42,596 nt of DNA from an uncultured bacterium (lineage in GTDB: Bacteria; Chloroflexota; Anaerolineae; J036; Brachytrichaceae): the NCBI GenBank assembly GCA_903921365.1, contig CAIXPS010000140.1, positions 1-42,596 on the forward strand, read 5' to 3'. Below, piece by piece: positions 4,184 to 31,551 of this stretch (position 1 is its first letter; the number at the start of each line of letters is the position of its first letter). Under the pieces are notes generated by a model. The model saw only the letters and a list, made by a program, of their open reading frames with translations. It ran no database searches and had not been told where the DNA came from. The position numbers were made by a program, and so were the translations under genes.

Positions 4184-4204
4184 CCTGAAGAATTCAAAGC
4201 ATTG
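4184..4204 (+). repeat. Diverged copy of the dispersed short repeat
   Basis: CCTGAAGAATTCAAAGCATT resembles the CCTAAAGGATTCAAAGCAAT repeat with a few changes. It lies at the stop codon of the deacetylase gene and upstream of the FtsX-type permease. Confidence 0.3.
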
Positions 4205-5234
4205 CGGCGAGTTGCTGCAGCGTGGTCGTGCCGCGCATCCGTATGCGAGACCATGTCATCGCGTCATCCAGCGAGTGCAGCGCGCCATACTGCGTGGTTA
4301 CAGCGCCCCAGACATCTGCTGACTTTAGCACCCGGATCACTGCATCATCATATTCGCCAGACGGGTAACAGAAGAAGTGCGGGCGCTTGCCCGTATAGGC
4401 TGTAATGGACTCAATCGGGCCAAGGATCTGCCACACCAGGAAATCGACCGAGCGATTGCGCATGTCCGGATGTGTGCGCGAATGAGATTCGATATCCATT
4501 CCCGCTGCCGACATTTCCTTCACCATATCCCACGACAAATAGGCCGGATTACCGCTGTTGATGAAGTCGCTGACGATGAAGAAAGTGCCAGACATGCCAT
4601 ACTTCTTCAACAGCGGGAACGCGTAGTCATACGCGTCCCGATAACCATCATCGAAGGTAAGGATGATTGGCTTTGCGGGCAAGGTGGCGCTGAGCGTAAA
4701 GCGACCATACAGATCGTAAAGGCTGATCGTGCTATAGCCATTTTCAGACAGATACGCAAGCTGTTTCTCGAAGTCAGCTGGTTTCACCGACAAATCCAGC
4801 CGGTATTTATCCGCATCCACCGGCGGCGGCGAGACGTAGTGATACATCAGTATCGGCACGCGCGCTTGCTCTAAACCCATGATGTGGCCTGGTTGTGGAG
4901 TGGCGCCCGTCACTGGCATAGACGCCGTCACGGTGGCGATCGACGCCAGATCGTCCATTGGCATGGGCGTAAAGGTTGGCAGCGGCACAGGCGACGAAGT
5001 TCGGGCCGGCGCAGGCGCCGATGTTGCAGTAAGCATTTCAATTCGGGTTGGAGTAATAGGGGTTGCCGGGGTTGCCGAAGCAAAGACGGCCACTATTGGC
5101 TGGGGCGTTTCAGTTGACCCTGAACTGGTTGTTGCTGAATACGTGACCGAAGTAGGCGGCGCCGGATTCCCGCAGCCTGTCGCAAAGACCGCCGTCAGCA
5201 TGAATAATGAAAATGTAAGAACAATTCGCCCCAT
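4194..5234 (-). CDS. Polysaccharide deacetylase lipoprotein (NodB/CE4)
   Basis: A metal-dependent deacetylase of N- or O-acetylated polysaccharide, probably on the outer face of the cell. The 346-residue protein starts with a hydrophobic signal ending ATGC, so Cys21 is the likely lipidation site. A Pro/Thr/Ser-rich linker runs to about residue 120. The NodB domain carries TFDDGY at 193-198 (catalytic and metal Asp), SHSRTHP at 250-256 (metal His251 and His255) and FCYPSG at 288-293. All metal-site motifs are present, so the enzyme should be active. The ATG at 5234 has no Shine-Dalgarno sequence; a TATAAT hexamer ends seven bases upstream, suggesting a leaderless mRNA. It diverges from the next gene across only 21 bp. 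Confidence 0.93.
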   Translation of the reverse strand: MGRIVLTFSLFMLTAVFATGCGNPAPPTSVTYSATTSSGSTETPQPIVAVFASATPATPITPTRIEMLTATSAPAPARTSSPVPLPTFTPMPMDDLASIATVTASMPVTGATPQPGHIMGLEQARVPILMYHYVSPPPVDADKYRLDLSVKPADFEKQLAYLSENGYSTISLYDLYGRFTLSATLPAKPIILTFDDGYRDAYDYAFPLLKKYGMSGTFFIVSDFINSGNPAYLSWDMVKEMSAAGMDIESHSRTHPDMRNRSVDFLVWQILGPIESITAYTGKRPHFFCYPSGEYDDAVIRVLKSADVWGAVTTQYGALHSLDDAMTWSRIRMRGTTTLQQLAAML

Positions 5235-5255: not shown

Positions 5256-5900
5256 GTGGATAAAAAAACGCGAATTCCAAGTTTGGCACTGACCGTTATA
5301 CTAATCGTTCTGAGCGCATGCACGCAGCAATCCAATACCACACCCCTGCCCTATACCGATGACTTCACCAATCCAGCCAGTGGTTGGCAGACATTGTCTG
5401 ACACATCCGCCGATGTCAAGTATGACGGAGGAGCCCTGCGCTTCGTGATCAAACAGGAAAACCTGACGCAGTGGAGCGTTGCGGGCAAGACTTTCCAGGA
5501 TGGCGTCTTTGAGGTGGATGCACAACCCAATGGCGGCCCTACTGACAACGGTTTTGGGATTATGTACCGAGTGAAAGACAGGAAAAACTTCTATCACTTT
5601 GAGATATCCTCGGATGGTTATTGGCGCGCCGGGATCACGCAAAACGGGAACTGGGTGAACTGGGATGACTGGACTGAAAACGGTTCCGTAAAAGCGAACA
5701 ATGCCAAAAACCATTTGAAGGTCATCATGAAAGGCGACACGTTCACTCTATTCGTAAACGACGAACAGGTGCTCCAGAAACAGGACAAATCCTACGCCGT
5801 CGGCGACATCGGGTTGTTCGCGTTATCCCTGATTGACAAACCCGGCACAGACATCTCATTCGCGAACGTGAAGATTACCGCCGCGCCAAATACTAAGTAA
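5256..5900 (+). CDS. Lipoprotein with concanavalin-like beta-sandwich domain, function unknown
   Basis: This 214-residue protein begins with a short positive segment and hydrophobic helix ending LSAC, so Cys22 is a convincing lipobox cysteine. The remainder (about 35-210) alternates short beta-strand-like stretches and ends in GDIGLFALSL followed by ISFANVKI. That is the usual ending of LamG-like or DUF1080-type (3-keto-disaccharide hydrolase) beta-sandwiches that often bind glycans. No catalytic motif was identified. The start is GTG, with no ribosome-binding site and a -10 box immediately upstream. It is divergent from the deacetylase lipoprotein, and a shared envelope-polysaccharide role is inference. 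Confidence 0.8.
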   Translation: MDKKTRIPSLALTVILIVLSACTQQSNTTPLPYTDDFTNPASGWQTLSDTSADVKYDGGALRFVIKQENLTQWSVAGKTFQDGVFEVDAQPNGGPTDNGFGIMYRVKDRKNFYHFEISSDGYWRAGITQNGNWVNWDDWTENGSVKANNAKNHLKVIMKGDTFTLFVNDEQVLQKQDKSYAVGDIGLFALSLIDKPGTDISFANVKITAAPNTK

Positions 5901-11258: not shown

Positions 11259-11549
11259 CCACATGATCTTTTGTAGAGGGATAGGATATATGAGATAGCG
11301 AGATCGCCTTATTGCAAACTGGTCAACACATCACCTGCCTAAACCGAACAGATGAGATATAAGCACATTCATTTCTCCGTTTACCCAGCTGACGCTATAT
11401 GAGTACGACAAAGGAGTGTCACTGAATCAAAGAAAGAAACAGACAACTCAAAAGAAACGTGCAGTATCTGGTCCTTAACCCAATGTAGTGAAAACACATG
11501 CGAATAAGCCCATATGACAAGATTGTGGACTTATTCAGGAGGTCTCAAA
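11259..11549. other. Gap before the C25 peptidase gene, no gene seen
   Basis: This A/T-rich 291-base gap has many stops on both strands. The only clear signal is AGGAGG at about 11537-11542, seven bases before the GTG of the next gene. Confidence 0.5.
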
Positions 11550-14500
11550 GTGGAAGCAAGGGTTTTCGTAAAAGCGTCGATTCCGATAATGATCATCGTG
11601 AGCCTAATGGCATCCCCTTCAGCCGCACAAACGCCATTTGTCAAGCAAACTCCCCCCGCAATAACTACGTCATCAGACATCAGGAATGAAAAAACAATTA
11701 CTTACGCTGCGAGCCCACGTAAACAACTGAGTACAACTGCGGTAACAACAGAAGATATTTTGCTTATCCAAACCAGCGATCCGTGGGAAAGTAGCGATCA
11801 TTATGTTGGGAACAACTGGTACGACGGTATTACAGCCGATACCTTGGTACTGGATTCACTTGGTTATACCTACCGGATAGCGACGTGGGACAACATTAAT
11901 CAAGGGACCGTCAACATCTTTGCTTATCCTGTCATTCTCATCGTAAACGATCAGGTTCAGGCATTCTACGATAGTTATGCGGCGCATGTCACCGATTTTG
12001 AAAATTACGTTTCATCTGGACATACGCTTGTCTTTTTCGCCGCGAGTGATGGTTGGGCCGGAGGGAGACTCAATGCCAATTTACCGGGTGGGGTTCATGT
12101 CGTGACACCCTGGTATGAATACAACAACTACATTGTAGATTCTAGCCATCCTATTGTTAGCGGACAATTGTCTGGTGGCGATATCCTGATGAATGCCGAT
12201 CTTTACAGTTATTATTGCAGCCATGGCTACTTTACGTCTCTACCCGCCAATGCTACGACGATTCTAGAGGAGTCACACAACTATCCTACCCTTGTTGAGT
12301 ATAGACTTGGGAATGGGCGTGTGATCGCATCAACACAGACATGGGAGCACAACTGGGCATACCACACTGGATCTGATGGTTATGGGACATTTGCTCGTAG
12401 GGCCTTAGATGATGTTTTTCTCTATGCTTTTTCTGGCGGTACGGTGCCATCCGATGTAAAGCTGGATCTTCGGATAGAAGACGCACCGGCATGGATAAGT
12501 GTGAATAAAAGTCGTAGTAGTTATATGGATGTGGTTGCGCGCGTCAGTGGGGGTTCTTCATATGGATTAAATGTAGTGTTGCAAATACCCTCTGATAAAT
12601 TCGGTGTGCCAGTAAAGACATTTACACGTAATCGCCCAGGTGACCCTAACTTCGGACAAAACAACCAGTATATTAATTTGGGTACTGGTCAGTATCAGAT
12701 ATCAACCACATTACAAGCACTCGGAGGAAGATACTATAAGGAGTTGGTCTGGCGATTCCTTATACCCAGCGGGGTTACCCCGGAGCGTGACGTAACATTA
12801 TCAGCACGTGTTTCAGTTCCCGGATATACAGTGCAAACCTCCAATGGCACCGTCAAGGTTAATATTATCGATAACGCCAATAGTCTAATTGTAACTAATC
12901 GTCGATTACTATTCAGCAAATATCAAGCTAACCCAGACCAAAATGATGTTTCTTCTTTGCTGGAGACTGTTTATGAACAGGCTTGGGTTTTCGACGGCGA
13001 AGTGTTTTATGTAGACTTATATGACAATGGCGCACGAGATTGGGCCCAGAACGTTGATTACTCGAACGAGACAGCGGCCAATACAATTGCTACCGCAATA
13101 CATGGGCTTATGATCAGTTGGTACAACCGCCTGACTAAGCATCCAAGCATATTTGAAACAATCAAACCCCAATATCTTCTTCTTGTCGGTGGTGATGAAA
13201 TAATACCTTTCTATAGAGCAGATGATCGTCCTTATGGAGATCTTGAATTCAATGATGTTCACATAGATGACAGCGATCCGGTGGGGAAGGTGCCACAGCA
13301 ACATTATTTGCTGTCCGATAACATCTATTCATCCATCAGTACTGATAAGAGTCAGTGGGAGGAAGGTAAACTTAACTTATCCACTGGAAGAATAATCGGA
13401 TACTCAGCGGCATCGATGCGACAATTCATCGAGAATGCGACATTTGCTACTCCGGCTCTCTCTCAGGCAGTTGTAGCATCCAGGTCTTCAATACATAAAC
13501 TCGATACCGTTATAGATCGCTTGAATTCACGGCATGTCGCGATTTATAGTCAAAGTAACCCTGATCTTACCGAGAATGACACTTGGACCAGAGCGCAATG
13601 GATTACAGCCCTCCAACAACCCTACCAGGTGCTTGCATATCAAGGACATGGGGCTTATGACGGGTGGTATGGCACTAGCAACTGGACAAGTGGCGTTACA
13701 GCATCAGACCAACCGTCTGGATTGATTAACGAAAACCACCCACTTTTCGCCGTTGAAGCTTGCAACTTTGCCATCCCAACGGACTTACATGGGGCAGCTT
13801 GGTTACCTGATCCCAATGACAACATATCCTGGAAACTTATCTCATTAGGGGCCGGTGGGATTCTGGGATCGATGGGGATTGATACGACCTCTCCGAAGAT
13901 GGCATATGGCACAAGGCTACATAATGATTATTTCAGGTACCTGATTGACAAGAGCTCCTGGTTCGGACTGATACCAGCCAGTGATTATAGCGAAGACTTC
14001 GGGACAGCTCTGCTTAAGGCCAAGCAGAACTATCCGGGAAATGGATTCCCTTGGGGCTATGATTCTACTGATAAGAAGACGTTAATGGAGTATGTATATT
14101 ACGGTCTGCCTTGGTCCTTTATGCCAACGCCCGACAACAATGCCACAGACTTGCTGGCAGCCTCTAAAACACCTTCTGGGTATAACATCTCAGAAGCTGT
14201 CCCGACTAACAACAAGTCAGCATCATACAACGTCGTAATCACGTCGACCATCTCTTCCTATCAATTTACACCCATCACTGGATTTGAGATGCTAGAAATA
14301 CCCGGCGCTGACACTTTGTACTCCTCTGGCAAACCCGTATTGCCCCTGCAAAATACTACGATCAACCTGCCCTCTGGAGCAACTGTATTCGGTGTAAATC
14401 TGATTACCTCACACTCGATACCATTGGGTCAGCATAATATCCCGGCGGCATATCCTTCAACATCATATAACAGTACCAACGGTTATACTAGCACAATGGG

Positions 14501-15872
14501 CGTGACAGGAGTTTTCCCGTCAGTTCTCTTTACTTATACTGTGAGAACAATAGAGGACCATTCAGAATTAAGAATCATTATCGCCCCGGCAACATTTAAT
14601 GTGGGCACGCATGATGTGGCACTCTTTGACTCAATCACGCTGCAAGCCAGTTACACGGCCACGATGCCGGTAGTACTTGATAATATGTCAACAGATCAGC
14701 CGGAGTATCAAGTCGGTGAGACGATTACACCCCGCGCAAATATCAAGAACGTCGGTTCGAATCCCATGTCACTGGTATCGAGAGTTCGCGTATTCGATGC
14801 TGGGGCATCATCAGTGTTGACAATGACCAGCGCTGCATACGTTGTCGACGCTGGAGGAGACTTCAGGTTTCAGTTGCCATTTACGCCCACACTGGCTCCC
14901 GGGAATTACCAACTGTCCCTGTCAGTAGAACAATCGGGTATGACATTAGTGTCAGAGGTCACATCCTTTAGAGTTCTAGCGGGTAGGCTCTCATGGTTTA
15001 ATGCGCCACAGTCAGTCGTATACGGTGAATATGGAACGTTCAATCTGTCGTTTACAAATTACCTCGCTGTGCCCGTGACGGCGACGGCCAAGGTTCACAT
15101 ATACGATGCCTCTGGCACCGAGTTGGCTGATCTTCTGCAACGCACGTTCGTTGTCAGTCCTCATGAAATCGGAGCGACTTCTTGGTCATGGGAACCAACC
15201 GGACTAACATCTGGCACGTATACTGTGCGAGCGGCTGTTAACGTTGGTGACGACACATACACGAGCAATTCGGTTGAAATGCAAGTGAAAGAACCCGCCA
15301 AAGTTTACCTACCCATTATGCTTCTCAACCATAGCAATGCAATACCATATCAGTGGCTGGATGCCACCACTGGTGGGACAATCGTTGCACAAAGTGACGA
15401 TACATATGAATACCTGAATTTGCCATTTACGTTCAACTTCTATGGTAATGCTTATTCTGGAGTCTATGTCTCATCGAATGGGTTTGTCAGCTTTGGTGCT
15501 GGTTATTCAGCTTTCAGCAATACTTGTATTCCCAGTGTAAGCACACCCAATAATGCCATCTATGGATTGTGGGAAGACTTAGTGCCTACAGGTGGCGCCA
15601 ATGGCAATGTATATGTGAAACAGGTTGACACCAATACATTTGTCATCGAATGGTATCAAGTGAAGCACTATGGAACTTCTGATTATGAGACATTCGAGAT
15701 TGTGATCCACAACGACAGTTCAATTACATTGCAGTATCAAACGGTTGTCAATGTAAGTTCAACAACTGTAGGTGTTGAAAATGACTCCGGCACATTAGCC
15801 AAACAATACTATTGCAATGGCAATGGAACACCGGTGGTAAATCAGCAGGTAATTCAATACACAACGCCATAG
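11550..15872 (+). CDS. Secreted gingipain-like cysteine peptidase (C25) with multiple beta domains
   Basis: I start at GTG 11550 because AGGAGG lies seven bases upstream and the product then begins with a clean signal peptide ending near SPSAAQ; an in-frame ATG at 11514 adds 12 unlikely residues. Of 1440 residues, about 60-300 look like a GATase-1/ThuA-like domain. A beta region follows. The peptidase domain contains QYLLLVGGDEIIPFYRADD, then YQGHG with catalytic His about 700 and AVEACNF with catalytic Cys about 738, the His-Cys arrangement of C25. Two CARDB/Ig-like domains, KVYLPIMLLNH near 1252 and a C-terminal nidogen-like beta domain (FYGNAYSGVYVSSNGFVSFG) follow. There is no type IX sorting domain. 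It is probably an extracellular peptidase held at the surface. Codon use is richer in A/T than neighbouring genes. Confidence 0.88.
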   Translation: MEARVFVKASIPIMIIVSLMASPSAAQTPFVKQTPPAITTSSDIRNEKTITYAASPRKQLSTTAVTTEDILLIQTSDPWESSDHYVGNNWYDGITADTLVLDSLGYTYRIATWDNINQGTVNIFAYPVILIVNDQVQAFYDSYAAHVTDFENYVSSGHTLVFFAASDGWAGGRLNANLPGGVHVVTPWYEYNNYIVDSSHPIVSGQLSGGDILMNADLYSYYCSHGYFTSLPANATTILEESHNYPTLVEYRLGNGRVIASTQTWEHNWAYHTGSDGYGTFARRALDDVFLYAFSGGTVPSDVKLDLRIEDAPAWISVNKSRSSYMDVVARVSGGSSYGLNVVLQIPSDKFGVPVKTFTRNRPGDPNFGQNNQYINLGTGQYQISTTLQALGGRYYKELVWRFLIPSGVTPERDVTLSARVSVPGYTVQTSNGTVKVNIIDNANSLIVTNRRLLFSKYQANPDQNDVSSLLETVYEQAWVFDGEVFYVDLYDNGARDWAQNVDYSNETAANTIATAIHGLMISWYNRLTKHPSIFETIKPQYLLLVGGDEIIPFYRADDRPYGDLEFNDVHIDDSDPVGKVPQQHYLLSDNIYSSISTDKSQWEEGKLNLSTGRIIGYSAASMRQFIENATFATPALSQAVVASRSSIHKLDTVIDRLNSRHVAIYSQSNPDLTENDTWTRAQWITALQQPYQVLAYQGHGAYDGWYGTSNWTSGVTASDQPSGLINENHPLFAVEACNFAIPTDLHGAAWLPDPNDNISWKLISLGAGGILGSMGIDTTSPKMAYGTRLHNDYFRYLIDKSSWFGLIPASDYSEDFGTALLKAKQNYPGNGFPWGYDSTDKKTLMEYVYYGLPWSFMPTPDNNATDLLAASKTPSGYNISEAVPTNNKSASYNVVITSTISSYQFTPITGFEMLEIPGADTLYSSGKPVLPLQNTTINLPSGATVFGVNLITSHSIPLGQHNIPAAYPSTSYNSTNGYTSTMGVTGVFPSVLFTYTVRTIEDHSELRIIIAPATFNVGTHDVALFDSITLQASYTATMPVVLDNMSTDQPEYQVGETITPRANIKNVGSNPMSLVSRVRVFDAGASSVLTMTSAAYVVDAGGDFRFQLPFTPTLAPGNYQLSLSVEQSGMTLVSEVTSFRVLAGRLSWFNAPQSVVYGEYGTFNLSFTNYLAVPVTATAKVHIYDASGTELADLLQRTFVVSPHEIGATSWSWEPTGLTSGTYTVRAAVNVGDDTYTSNSVEMQVKEPAKVYLPIMLLNHSNAIPYQWLDATTGGTIVAQSDDTYEYLNLPFTFNFYGNAYSGVYVSSNGFVSFGAGYSAFSNTCIPSVSTPNNAIYGLWEDLVPTGGANGNVYVKQVDTNTFVIEWYQVKHYGTSDYETFEIVIHNDSSITLQYQTVVNVSSTTVGVENDSGTLAKQYYCNGNGTPVVNQQVIQYTTP

Positions 15873-18650: not shown

Positions 18651-19712
18651 GTGACGCCCAATCAACCTGATTCTGCCAACGACCTGTCGAGTGCCGCACA
18701 AGTGCACACGGCCGTCCGCAGGTTTTTCGCAAAGCTTTCATCCCCTCTAAAACCCTACCCGGTCGTGCTCGCCATATCCGGCGGCCCGGACTCGTTGTGC
18801 ATGGCCGACGCCATCGTCGACTTACAGTCAGATATCCAGGTCATTCCAGTCATCGCCCATTTGAACCACGGACTCCGCGGTAAGGAGGCGCAGGCTGATG
18901 CAGACTTTGTGCGTAGTTTTGCCGTCAGCCATGATATCGCATGCCACATTGGCGAATCTGATGTCCACCAGATCAGCAAGGAACATCACATTTCGATCGA
19001 GGAAGCGGCTCGATCCGCCCGTTACACCTTTCTCGCATCCGTCGCAAGAGCGGCGCGCGCGAACTATATCGCGCTCGCACACAACGCCGATGACCAGGTC
19101 GAGACAGTGCTGTTAAGGCTAATCCGTGGAACCGGAATAACAGGGCTGCAAGGCATGCAGGCCGTCAGCCCCTTGAAAGCCGAATTCGACGCAGGTAATG
19201 ACACCCTCTTGCTGCTCAGACCATTACTCTCCCTGCCCCGCAGTGTGATTGACGCTTACTGCTCTGTTCGCAACTTGTCTCCCCGACACGACGCCACCAA
19301 CGATGAACGACATCATCTGCGAAACCGTATTCGGCTCGATCTCTTGCCGTTGCTGGAGAGCTATAACCCAGGCGTCCGCAAAGTGATCAGGCGACTGGCC
19401 GAGACCGCCGGCGCGGACGTGGAAATCGTCAGCTACGCTGTGAAACTTGCGCTGGATCAGATACGCATCCAGGACGCGGAACTGCTGACGATTGATCGAT
19501 CAGCCTGGACATTACTGCCCGTTGGCTTACAACGAGCCACTTTGCGCGACGCCCTCCTGCAGTTCAACGGTGAGCTAACGCATGTGAAATATGCCGGCAT
19601 CGAAGAAGCCCGCGACGTGTTAAACAGCGCGGCGGCCCATGCCGAGATCGCAATCCTCGCTCAGGTGAGGATCGTCGTAACCCCTCGCCAGTTCTGGTTC
19701 AAACGCGCGTGA
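18651..19712 (+). CDS. tilS: tRNA(Ile)-lysidine synthase TilS
   Basis: TilS adds lysine to C34 of tRNA-Ile(CAU) so that it reads AUA codons. The 353-residue protein has the PP-loop AISGGPDS at 41-48, binding ATP, followed by HLNHGLRG, ARYTFL and LAHNADDQVETVLLRLIRGTG, all conserved in the N-terminal catalytic domain. The C-terminus is short, so the tRNA-binding tail is reduced as in smaller TilS forms. The start is GTG at 18651 without a convincing Shine-Dalgarno sequence; the preceding repeat supplies AAAGG but about 20 bases away. Confidence 0.95.
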   Translation: MTPNQPDSANDLSSAAQVHTAVRRFFAKLSSPLKPYPVVLAISGGPDSLCMADAIVDLQSDIQVIPVIAHLNHGLRGKEAQADADFVRSFAVSHDIACHIGESDVHQISKEHHISIEEAARSARYTFLASVARAARANYIALAHNADDQVETVLLRLIRGTGITGLQGMQAVSPLKAEFDAGNDTLLLLRPLLSLPRSVIDAYCSVRNLSPRHDATNDERHHLRNRIRLDLLPLLESYNPGVRKVIRRLAETAGADVEIVSYAVKLALDQIRIQDAELLTIDRSAWTLLPVGLQRATLRDALLQFNGELTHVKYAGIEEARDVLNSAAAHAEIAILAQVRIVVTPRQFWFKRA

Positions 19713-19739: not shown

Positions 19740-19745
19740 TATAAT
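19740..19745 (+). promoter_or_regulatory. -10 element (TATAAT) for the HTH-Kelch gene, near-leaderless
   Basis: TATAAT at 19740-19745 predicts +1 at about 19752, three bases before the ATG at 19755. No ribosome-binding site fits in the gap. Confidence 0.55.
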
Positions 19746-19754
19746 GCAACAGTC

Positions 19755-21287
19755 ATGGCGGAGCCCAAAGAGCCACTAACTGAACGAGAGCTGGAAGTCG
19801 TGCGTCTATTGGGCGTCGCTGGCGCGGGCAACAAGGAAATCGCAGCGCAATTGTTCCTCAGCCCCAACACGGTTAAGGTTCATCTGCGCAACATCTTCAC
19901 AAAGCTCGAAGCCACGTCGCGCACTGAGGTAATCATGATCGCGATACGGAATGGTTGGATTGCGGTCAACCAACCCGTGCCGCCCAATAGTGAGACTGTC
20001 GAGCAGTCCGCTGCTTCGGAACCGCCGCAGATCAGCGCCAACGCGAGAAATCAATCCGATGAGACGACCAGTTCACAGGATGCACCCACCGCCTCCCCGC
20101 CAGACGCCCCCTCAAGTGAAGCGAATGTAGTAGTGCCGCCACAACCGACGATCACGGTGCCTGTAGCGCCAAACCCCCAGGCAATCCCAGCAATGGACAA
20201 ATGGCGCAGAGTCGTGCTGCTGGCGTCGTTCCTCGTGCTGGTGCTGTTCATCGCCTTTGCAGTGCCGCCAAATACCATTGGATATGCGGACACATTCGAC
20301 CCATTGCGAATTGGTCCTAGCCAGCCAAGAAACGGCCTCCTCTCACGCGGCGAGTCCTCACGCTGGTATTTGCGAGCCCCACTTCCAGCAGCCCGCGCCA
20401 GAGCAGTCGCCATCGCTGCCGGGAGTCACATCTATGTCATTGGCGGCGAGGTTAATCAGACTGTCTCTGCAGATGTCATGGTATATGAACCGCTATCCAA
20501 TACCTGGACGCTCGCACCGTCCTCGAAGCCAACTGCGGTGGCGAATACCGCCGCAGTTGCAGTAGGCAACCGCATCTACGTTGCGGGGGGAACAACCGCT
20601 GACGGCAGCCCGAGCAACGCATTGGAGTCCTATGACGTCGCAGCAGGGCGCTGGACAGTGCTCGCGCCGCTGCCCGCGCGTCTCGCCGGGCACGCAATGG
20701 TTGCCCTTGATAACCAGTTATACGTTTTCGGCGGCGTTTCCGACGGTGGAACAACAGACGCGAGTTATCGCTACGATATTACTCAGAACACATGGCATCC
20801 TATCGCCCCAATGCCCGGCGCGCGTAGCCTTATGGCTGCAGACACAGTCAATCCAAAAGGGACCCTGGACAGCGCCCGCATCTATGTCATTGGCGGGTTT
20901 AATGACGGGCGGGAACTAGCGACTTGCGCGTTTTATGCCCCTGACAGCGACTCATGGGACAACTGCGCGCCGATGACAATCCCGCGTAGCGCTCTGGGAT
21001 TAGCGCGCGTAGGCACAAACCTGTATGCTATCGGCGGCGGTTCGACCGGTTTCATCGGTTTTAACGAGCGCTATGACGCCCTGACGGATCGGTGGACGCC
21101 TCTCGAAACCCCTGTCACCAGCGATTGGCAAAGCACCGCCGTGGCTTCCATGCCCAGCGAATTCTTCGTGTTTGGCGGTTACAACAATGGCGAACGGCTG
21201 GCGTTTACATACGTATACGAAGTGTTCACAAACCGCGTCTATGTCCCCGCCTTCCTCGCGACAGACAGCCAGGGTAAGAAGCCATAA
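19755..21287 (+). CDS. LuxR-type HTH / transmembrane / Kelch-repeat protein (putative one-component membrane sensor)
   Basis: The 510-residue protein starts with a GerE/LuxR helix-turn-helix at about 7-70 (LTERELEVVRLL, then NKEIAAQLFLSPNTVKVHL). A Pro/Ser/Ala/Thr-rich linker runs to about 150 and one transmembrane helix spans 152-171. Beyond it come five or six Kelch repeats (about 203-495), each with the GG doublet and the spaced Tyr and Trp, e.g. IYVIGGEVN, LYVFGGVSD, IYVIGGFND. With the basic DNA-binding domain inside and the Kelch propeller outside, the layout resembles ToxR/CadC one-component regulators. No kinase or receiver partner is adjacent. It ends in VYVPAF, like the secreted peptidase's VYLPIM. 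Ligand and targets are unknown. Confidence 0.85.
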   Translation: MAEPKEPLTERELEVVRLLGVAGAGNKEIAAQLFLSPNTVKVHLRNIFTKLEATSRTEVIMIAIRNGWIAVNQPVPPNSETVEQSAASEPPQISANARNQSDETTSSQDAPTASPPDAPSSEANVVVPPQPTITVPVAPNPQAIPAMDKWRRVVLLASFLVLVLFIAFAVPPNTIGYADTFDPLRIGPSQPRNGLLSRGESSRWYLRAPLPAARARAVAIAAGSHIYVIGGEVNQTVSADVMVYEPLSNTWTLAPSSKPTAVANTAAVAVGNRIYVAGGTTADGSPSNALESYDVAAGRWTVLAPLPARLAGHAMVALDNQLYVFGGVSDGGTTDASYRYDITQNTWHPIAPMPGARSLMAADTVNPKGTLDSARIYVIGGFNDGRELATCAFYAPDSDSWDNCAPMTIPRSALGLARVGTNLYAIGGGSTGFIGFNERYDALTDRWTPLETPVTSDWQSTAVASMPSEFFVFGGYNNGERLAFTYVYEVFTNRVYVPAFLATDSQGKKP

Positions 21288-29706: not shown

Positions 29707-31551
29707 ATGAAACCAAGTGAACGTCGCCAGCACATAATGGAGTTACTACTCCAGAACGGTACAGTTCACCTGTCCCAACTGGTCCAGTTGCTGCAGGTCT
29801 CCGAAGGCACAGTTCGCAACGACCTGCGACTGCTGGAGAAGCAGAATGAACTGATCCGCACGCACGGCGGCGCCGTGCTGGGCACCCGCCCTATGTCTCA
29901 ATTTGCTCCGCAAAAAAGCGTTGCGACAGAACAGGAACGCGCCCTGCGCGCCATCCAGAGTATCGCAAAGCGAGCCACGTCACTCGTCGAGGAAGGCGAT
30001 ATCATCCTGCTTGCGGGCAGCCCGATCACTCAGGAGATGGCATGCGAACTGCTGCCGCTCAAGTCGCTGACCGTCTTGACCAATAGCGTCCAGATTGCCT
30101 TGACGCTTTCCCGCAATCCGACTCAGACCGTGATCCTGATCGGCGGGCAGATGCGCTCGGAGCGCGACACGCTGGACGGCCACACCGCTATTTCAATGCT
30201 GCGCGAGTTGCGCGTGCAAAAGGCATTTCTGTCGTGCGACGGCGTCAGCGCGGCGCGTGGCTTTGCAGATGACGATATTGCCAGCGGTGAGTTGAAGATG
30301 GCGATGCTGGCATGCGCCCAGAAGGTCATTGTCGTGACGACTGTTGACCGTATGGGGAAATCGGCCTTGATCAGCTTCGCTACTCTCAACCGCATTCATC
30401 ACGTTGTCACCACCGAGAGCGCGCCTTCTGAGACGCTGACCGCATTGCGCGCGGCTGGTGTGCAGGTGTCGTTGTGCGGCGAGTACATCACAGAAATCTA
30501 CGCCGATCCACCGCAGGGGCGCCGCTGGCGCGTCGGGTTTGCCAACCTGACCGAGAAACAGGAATTTGCCGTGGCCGTGCGCCAGGGCATCGAGCGCGCG
30601 GCGAATGAAAATAGTGCGATCGACCTCCTGCTGGCCGACAACGACGCTGAGCCGGAGATCGCACTGGCAAATGCCAAGGGGCTCATTGATGCGCGCGTCG
30701 ACCTCGTTATCGAGTACCAGCAGGACGAACAAACCAACAACGTGTTAATGGACTTGTTCCGTTCGGCCATGGTGCCAGTCATCGCGATCGATATTCCTTT
30801 GCCGGGCGCCACCTTCTTTGGCGCAGACAATTACCGCGCCGGGCGAATCGCCGGTGATGCGGCTGCGCGTTGGATCCGGGAGCACTGGAACGGCAAGCTG
30901 GACAAGCTGGTATGCCTTGAACAACCCGAGTCCGGGCCGGTGCCCGCTGCGCGCATCCAGGGCCAGATCGATGGGCTGCGGCTGTCCATACCCATCAACA
31001 CAGACAGCATTGTCCGGTTGAGCACTCGTGGAGACCTGGAAGGATCGCAACTTGCGGCGACCCAGGCGTTGCGCAACATTCCCATGGGTAAACATGTTCT
31101 CTTTATTGGGATTAACGCCCACTCTGCGCTTGGAGCGCTTGCCGCCGCCGAAACGCTTGATCGTCAGGACTATACGGCGGTGATCAGCCAGAATGCCAGC
31201 GGACGCATCCGGCGGGAACTGGTTCGACGCAATCCTATGCTCATCGGCGCCGTGGATTTCTTCCCGCAGAACTATGGGGGCAAAGCCGTCCAACTCGCCA
31301 TCGAGATCCTCACGGGGCGTCCGACTCCCCCGGCGGTCTATACAGACCACCTGTTGATTACAAGCGACAATATCAGCCAGATATACCCGGACGATGCACA
31401 CACACTCGGTTCACATAGCGGTGTGAAGGACGCACACGATCAAGTCAGCGGTTCAAAGACGCCGCTGATCACATCGATCCCTTCGATTCCATCGATTCCA
31501 TCGATTCCATCGATCCCTTCAATCAGGTCTACGATTTCCACCAAGGTCTAA
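29707..31551 (+). CDS. DeoR-type regulator fused to a periplasmic-binding-protein-like sugar domain; probable rhamnose regulator
   Basis: The 614-residue protein has three modules. Residues 1-57 are a DeoR HTH (MKPSERRQHIMELL, then VSEGTVRNDLRLLEKQNELIRTHGGA). Residues about 76-235 are the DeoRC sensor (EEGDIILLAGS, LTVLTNS, ILIGGQMR, KAFLSCDGV), which in the family binds phosphosugars. Residues about 272-565 match the type I periplasmic-binding fold seen in LacI and RbsB (RVGFANLTEKQEF, DLVIEYQQD, VPVIAIDIPLPGATFFGADNYRAGRIAG, GGKAVQLAIEILTG). A tail with five to six SIP tripeptides follows. No signal peptide, so it is cytosolic. Standard DeoR proteins are about 250 residues, so two effector domains are unusual. 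It precedes rhaM by 21 bases under a consensus promoter, so it is probably autoregulated. Confidence 0.88.
   Translation: MKPSERRQHIMELLLQNGTVHLSQLVQLLQVSEGTVRNDLRLLEKQNELIRTHGGAVLGTRPMSQFAPQKSVATEQERALRAIQSIAKRATSLVEEGDIILLAGSPITQEMACELLPLKSLTVLTNSVQIALTLSRNPTQTVILIGGQMRSERDTLDGHTAISMLRELRVQKAFLSCDGVSAARGFADDDIASGELKMAMLACAQKVIVVTTVDRMGKSALISFATLNRIHHVVTTESAPSETLTALRAAGVQVSLCGEYITEIYADPPQGRRWRVGFANLTEKQEFAVAVRQGIERAANENSAIDLLLADNDAEPEIALANAKGLIDARVDLVIEYQQDEQTNNVLMDLFRSAMVPVIAIDIPLPGATFFGADNYRAGRIAGDAAARWIREHWNGKLDKLVCLEQPESGPVPAARIQGQIDGLRLSIPINTDSIVRLSTRGDLEGSQLAATQALRNIPMGKHVLFIGINAHSALGALAAAETLDRQDYTAVISQNASGRIRRELVRRNPMLIGAVDFFPQNYGGKAVQLAIEILTGRPTPPAVYTDHLLITSDNISQIYPDDAHTLGSHSGVKDAHDQVSGSKTPLITSIPSIPSIPSIPSIPSIRSTISTKV
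31473..31521 (+). repeat. 9-bp tandem repeat inside the regulator gene
   Basis: About five and a half copies of TCGATTCCA or TCGATCCCT, in frame, encode the SIP repeats at residues 590-606. Three central copies are identical, so copy number could change by slippage without shifting frame. Confidence 0.75.

Follow-up and report, generated by a model that had tools for sequence, protein, structure and literature searches.

A membrane-tethered GerE-Kelch protein conserved as a single-copy gene across two bacterial classes: a predicted one-component transcription regulator

The window analysed here is a stretch of 42,596 nucleotides from an uncultured bacterium of the Anaerolineae (Chloroflexota; family Brachytrichaceae), comprising positions 1 to 42,596 of contig CAIXPS010000140.1 in assembly GCA_903921365.1. 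At 19755..21287 it encodes a protein of 510 residues that combines a GerE/LuxR-type helix-turn-helix (HTH), a tether, one transmembrane (TM) helix and a six-bladed Kelch propeller, as defined from the open reading frame (ORF), Pfam, AlphaFold2 and 80 homologous ORFs. The HTH occupies residues 7-63 (19773..19943), where the Pfam GerE model (PF00196) scores 68.9 bits against a gathering cut-off of 23.5, a genome-level match falls at identical coordinates, and the AlphaFold2 confidence measure pLDDT (predicted local distance difference test) exceeds 90. A Pro/Ala-rich tether follows at about residues 69-135 (19959..20159); its length, composition and pLDDT, mostly 43-62, mark it as a region modelled as disordered. 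Residues 136-152 (20160..20210) form a family-specific juxtamembrane motif, PVAPNPQ...DKWRR, on the predicted cytoplasmic side. This motif is kept in 23 sequences of the organism's own family, in which the N-terminal flank of the helix ends in a conserved PVAPNPQPLP..WRR. The TM helix spans residues 149-170 (20199..20264), with a hydropathy of 2.94, and is the sole strong TM segment. The propeller covers residues 204-489 (20364..21221) and includes Cys391 and Cys404 (20925..20966), a putative disulfide between neighbouring strands of blade 4. All of these features lie on the forward strand.

The domain order is supported by structural models. AlphaFold2, supplied with an alignment of 65 sequences, modelled the protein with a mean pLDDT of 86, placing four HTH helices at residues 10-65, disorder at about 75-140, one long helix at 149-169 and strands at 204-489. 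Six blades were counted by hand from these strands, with the N-terminal strand at 204-206, after the membrane stalk, closing blade 6. The same order was obtained for an orthologue from a second class, presumably Chloroflexia; modelled on its own alignment, it has the HTH at residues 9-63, the helix at 159-182 and the propeller at 203-477. In both proteins the repeated motifs close into a propeller, and in the window protein Pfam Kelch_1 matches five stretches of the C-terminal part (155.6 bits). The boundaries proposed in a preliminary description made from the sequence (HTH at 7-70, helix at 152-171, Kelch repeats beyond) lie within a few residues of the Pfam and AlphaFold2 limits. A Pfam scan of the protein found no receiver, HisKA or HATPase domain, nor the autoinducer-binding domain of quorum-sensing LuxR receptors. 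Likewise, the OmpR-type winged helix Trans_reg_C is absent among the 20 Pfam families listed up to an E-value of 1.

The GerE-type DNA-binding domain is intact, and the loss of DNA-contacting residues that the preliminary description had named as a refutation is not seen. Its recognition helix comprises residues 37-51 (NTVKVHLRNIF..KL), which read SPNTVKVHLRNIFTKL in the window protein. Across 65 homologues from the two classes, N26, T39, V40, H43, K50, R56 and G67 are invariant, while position 41 is lysine or arginine in all 65, position 42 is valine in 62 and position 45 is arginine or lysine in 60. K41, V42 and R45 are the counterparts of Lys188, Val189 and Lys192 of NarL, which contact DNA. 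The solved structures nearest to the HTH in sequence are those of VpsT, VraR and other GerE domains. Mean column entropy is lowest in the recognition helix (0.69 bits), followed by the HTH as a whole (1.09), the propeller (2.06) and the tether and TM helix (about 2.6). As the recognition helix has the lowest entropy and the GerE columns are kept throughout the homologues, the strongest constraint falls on the side that would read DNA. Conservation of the propeller falls far short of that of the HTH, and of the recognition helix in particular; this contrast speaks for genuine binding to DNA.

Several observations suggest that the HTH is cytoplasmic and the propeller outside the membrane. Each of the 80 homologous ORFs has one clear hydrophobic segment between the two domains, with hydropathies of 1.88-3.25. 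In the 65 homologues, lysines and arginines average 2.25 per N-terminal flank of the TM helix and 1.17 per C-terminal flank, the former being richer in 47 proteins and poorer in six (Wilcoxon p = 6e-8, a guide only because the homologues are related). Cys391 and Cys404 are the sole cysteines of the window protein, and the pair is present as a whole in 34 homologues, absent in 28 and reduced to one member in only three (Fisher p = 2e-15, with kinship ignored). This joint gain and loss fits a disulfide formed in an oxidising compartment outside the membrane. The positive-inside charge bias and the coupled cysteines, together with the need of an HTH for the cytoplasm, therefore place the propeller outside, in agreement with the ToxR-like one-component layout proposed earlier; the charge bias and the cysteine pair put Kelch and HTH on opposite sides rather than on the same one. 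A conceivable alternative is that both domains are cytoplasmic and that the hydrophobic helix is buried or re-entrant. The charge bias is modest, but the hydropathy of every homologue, the charge asymmetry across the set, the coupled cysteines and the modelling of the helix apart from both domains make this arrangement very improbable.

The protein is widely distributed. Profile searches recovered full-length relatives throughout its own family, with 43-58% identity among those fully aligned, in most of its class and in Chloroflexia. Among good genomes (completeness of 90% or more, contamination of 5% or less), the gene is present in 104 of 136 Anaerolineae and 43 of 93 Chloroflexia, nearly always in one copy, and whole families, for example f27, are without it. 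All 80 ORFs recovered from fetched loci of the two classes encode the HTH, one TM helix and Kelch repeats in a single frame, so a chance or assembly fusion is not the explanation. In this set, two loci (L021 and L104) represent one gene obtained via two collections, and two others (L099, L101) were missed by the simple gene picker. In a protein tree, the own family forms one group (100/99), members of one family pair, and few changes are needed to account for the classes; the tree follows families, a pattern in keeping with mainly vertical descent. On these comparisons, we regard the gene as a single-copy orthologue conserved mainly vertically across two classes. A second copy was seen in one Roseiflexus-like genome (L085, G688:C49), where it lies on a 5.3-kb contig and has a Chloroflexus-like HTH; this is probably a contaminating contig. 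A single-sequence scan of named genomes gave two loci, one encoding a distant homologue of the same layout and the other Kelch repeats only. A mobile origin was considered and rejected: the plasmid and phage matches are partial, among those listed all fall on the Kelch part, and they extend over at most 58% of the protein, with none covering 80%. A defence role was also rejected, the sole PADLOC match being to the HTH alone.

A rival reading is that the protein does not signal but acts as an anchor, its HTH clamping a chromosomal region and its propeller being held by a wall component, so that DNA is tied to the membrane or wall. A single copy, deep conservation and a variable propeller sequence would suit such a role. 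GerE HTHs are known as regulators, however, and the absence of the gene from whole families such as f27 speaks against a structural role in the chromosome; we consider an anchor improbable.

The protein does not appear to belong to a family of paralogous surface sensors, as had been supposed. A profile search found 26 GerE matches in its own genome, but among 20 regions covering most of the others no second protein with an N-terminal HTH was found. Throughout these regions the HTH lies at the C-terminus, and the proteins resemble response regulators and large ATPase-type regulators. Likewise, no GerE protein with an N-terminal HTH occurs at 20 long GerE loci taken from five further genomes, shorter GerE proteins being outside the scope of this comparison; at two of these loci the HTH sits mid-chain and is preceded by a receiver, and in the rest it is C-terminal. 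The search for paralogues with other outside domains, as suggested in the preliminary description, therefore returned none in the own genome or in the long loci of the five others. What was found instead is a single-copy orthologue.

The predicted propeller has a familiar fold. It superposes on the Kelch domain of human NS1-BP with a Z-score of 38.2 and a root-mean-square deviation (rmsd) of 1.8 over 274 residues, and it shares the six-bladed Kelch fold with KEAP1, NS1-BP and the designed SAKe proteins (Z 36-38, rmsd 1.3-2.3). Identity to these proteins is about 21-29%, and the common fold is no evidence of a common ligand. Loop entropies on the putative ligand face give an ambiguous signal, because the conserved loop residues overlap the general Kelch consensus. 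The propeller also scores with models of sugar-modifying enzymes, including NANM (N-acetylneuraminate epimerase) and YjhT, which raises the idea that the protein is an epimerase- or mutarotase-type enzyme with the HTH as a spare part. The Pfam NANM score of 64.0 exceeds its cut-off of 45, but over part of the profile only. The NCBIfam epimerase and mutarotase models score 69, 62 and 53, far under their cut-offs of 243, 416 and 256, and again the best stretch spans part of the profiles. In addition, no part of the protein is better conserved than the HTH, which is hence no spare, and an enzymatic role is very unlikely.

The layout can be compared with several known systems. In ToxR, CadC and TcpP a cytoplasmic DNA-binding domain at the N-terminus is followed by one TM helix and a C-terminal outside sensor, an order shared by the window protein; their DNA-binding domain is an OmpR-type winged helix, whereas the window protein has a GerE HTH and a Kelch-propeller sensor. 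As no OmpR-type winged helix was found, the protein would function like ToxR and CadC but stands outside their family. Regulators of Bacteroidota that have an outside propeller and a Y_Y_Y domain likewise couple a beta-propeller through the membrane to transcription, but there the propeller comes first and the DNA-binding domain last; the window protein has the reverse order, a propeller of the Kelch type and no kinase or receiver domains. It shares the GerE HTH fold with NarL/FixJ-type response regulators, VpsT and VraR, from which it differs in its N-terminal HTH, its lack of a receiver and its membrane anchor.

More generally, the domain content falls within the definition of transmembrane transcription regulators (TTRs), which requires a single protein to have a DNA-binding domain and one or more TM regions (PMC10269533). 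A survey counted 50,302 TTRs in 9,673 genomes, of which single-pass proteins are the commonest at about 56% (Demey et al. 2023, PMC10269533). The window protein is likewise a single-pass chain, and on such numbers a DNA-binding protein tethered to the membrane is no surprise in itself. About 57% of known TTRs are without a recognisable sensor domain, very few have been tested, and 7.7% carry a Y_Y_Y domain (PMC10269533). The main text of the survey mentions neither Kelch, propellers nor GerE, and it finds no conservation of the hybrid subtype at the level of genus, class or phylum, in contrast to the conservation of the window protein across two classes (PMC10269533). No description or function of a GerE-TM-Kelch (LuxR-Kelch) membrane regulator was found in a literature search among openly licensed papers. 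While transmembrane regulators as such are already known, the pairing of GerE with Kelch and its deep conservation appear to be new. The deep single-copy conservation is of more interest than the domain pairing alone.

Taken together, we favour, with moderate confidence, the view that the protein is a one-component transmembrane transcription regulator that acts while membrane-bound. The outside propeller would bind a surface component, the first candidates being an envelope or exported polysaccharide and a surface protein, and its occupancy would alter how two molecules meet in the membrane. Their cytoplasmic HTHs, each presumably joined to its membrane helix by the flexible Pro/Ala-rich tether, would then come together on one operator and switch target genes on or off, with the protein staying in the membrane. 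Across homologues the tether is 23-113 residues long and 34% Pro+Ala; a tether of this kind, modelled as disordered, cannot transmit a rigid helix movement, though it can still let the HTH reach DNA. For this reason proximity, by dimerisation or clustering, is a likelier signalling step than a piston-like or rotating helix.

The same property of the tether makes proteolytic release plausible. Here the propeller would sense a change at the surface, proteases would cleave both stalk and membrane helix, and the HTH with its tether, once released, would serve as a soluble transcription factor. A type II single-pass topology and a flexible stalk, 19-37 residues long, would suit this mechanism, and the regulated proteolysis of RsiW and SREBP-type release provide precedents. 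In addition, the amount of TcpP, itself a TTR, is controlled by proteolysis (PMC11323476). Against this, no conserved cleavage-like sequence was seen in the stalk, and no protease gene occurs among the conserved neighbours in the own family, Chloroflexia or the other Anaerolineae loci. We thus consider release by proteolysis rather unlikely and continue to favour a regulator that remains in the membrane.

The gene appears to have its own, leaderless promoter. A TATAAT -10-like box (19740..19745, forward strand) lies 9 nt before the ATG, and of the 21 own-family loci, 17 have a perfect TATAAT just 5' of the start codon. A -10 box so near the start is the arrangement reported for leaderless genes of Chloroflexi and other groups (PMC3160421). 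TATAAT also occurs 6-9 nt before the start codons of two further ORFs in the window, at 4194-5234 (reverse strand) and 5256-5900 (forward strand), and leaderless transcription seems to be in regular use in this genome. Directly upstream is a tilS-like gene with an AISGGPDS motif (18651..19712, forward strand). This conserved neighbour takes position -1 on the same strand at 20 of the 21 own-family loci, and is probably not functionally linked to the regulator. No operon partner is conserved across the whole family of homologues, tilS being restricted to the own family and partly f50.

In Chloroflexia, the setting of the gene among glycosyltransferase genes suggests a role in surface-polysaccharide control. 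The 102 neighbours at 13 loci include ten group 1 glycosyltransferases, nine methyltransferases, three nucleotidyltransferases and three family 2 glycosyltransferases. In 107 genes taken from randomly chosen regions of these genomes, group 1 glycosyltransferases and methyltransferases are not among the families with at least two matches, and family 2 is matched twice. Two points weigh against this link: the counts are not independent, as the loci share descent, and the glycosyltransferase neighbours are confined to Chloroflexia, the own family having tilS and other Anaerolineae mixed neighbours. As a result, the link to polysaccharides is a lead rather than a result. Single loci of other Anaerolineae have genes for Wzt-type polysaccharide export or sugar nucleotides nearby. 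In seven of 25 such loci, from unrelated families, a convergent tyrosine recombinase gene lies beside or near the regulator (L093, L102, L108, L114, L122, L125, L129). At four Chloroflexaceae-like loci (L080, L082, L089, L090), the gene is divergent from one for a secreted protein of 760-790 residues, which is followed by an ABC-2-type permease-like gene; these two genes are a possible target operon. In an alignment of Chloroflexus-like upstream regions, only the promoter (TATGTTATGATCAACG) stood out, along with a TATTATACG box close to the divergent gene; no convincing palindrome that could serve as an operator was seen.

Two other genes on the forward strand of the window also deserve mention. 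One (29707-31551) encodes a chain of 614 residues in which a DeoR HTH and a DeoR sensor domain are joined to a Peripla_BP_4 sugar-binding domain; genes nearby code for an FGGY sugar kinase and for an isomerase-like protein with AP_endonuc_2/RhaA matches. The other (11514-15872) encodes a predicted secreted protein of 1452 residues, beside secD and secF, for which Pfam gave only a weak Wzt_C match below cut-off.

On a broader scale, we tentatively suggest that the protein may be an ancestral envelope-surveillance regulator of the Anaerolineae and Chloroflexia, although we hold this to be doubtful. One copy per genome would use a near-fixed recognition helix to read a conserved operator, while the faster-changing propeller would track the polysaccharide or surface layer of each lineage. 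The protein has a clear sensor of an often-crystallised fold; its HTH is intact, and the gene is deeply conserved in single copy. An orthologue seems to be present in cultured strains of Chloroflexus, Roseiflexus and Herpetosiphon (C. aurantiacus J-10-fl, C. aggregans, Roseiflexus sp. RS-1, H. aurantiacus). If these strains do carry the gene, sensing across an unusual envelope and membrane-based control of transcription would become directly testable.
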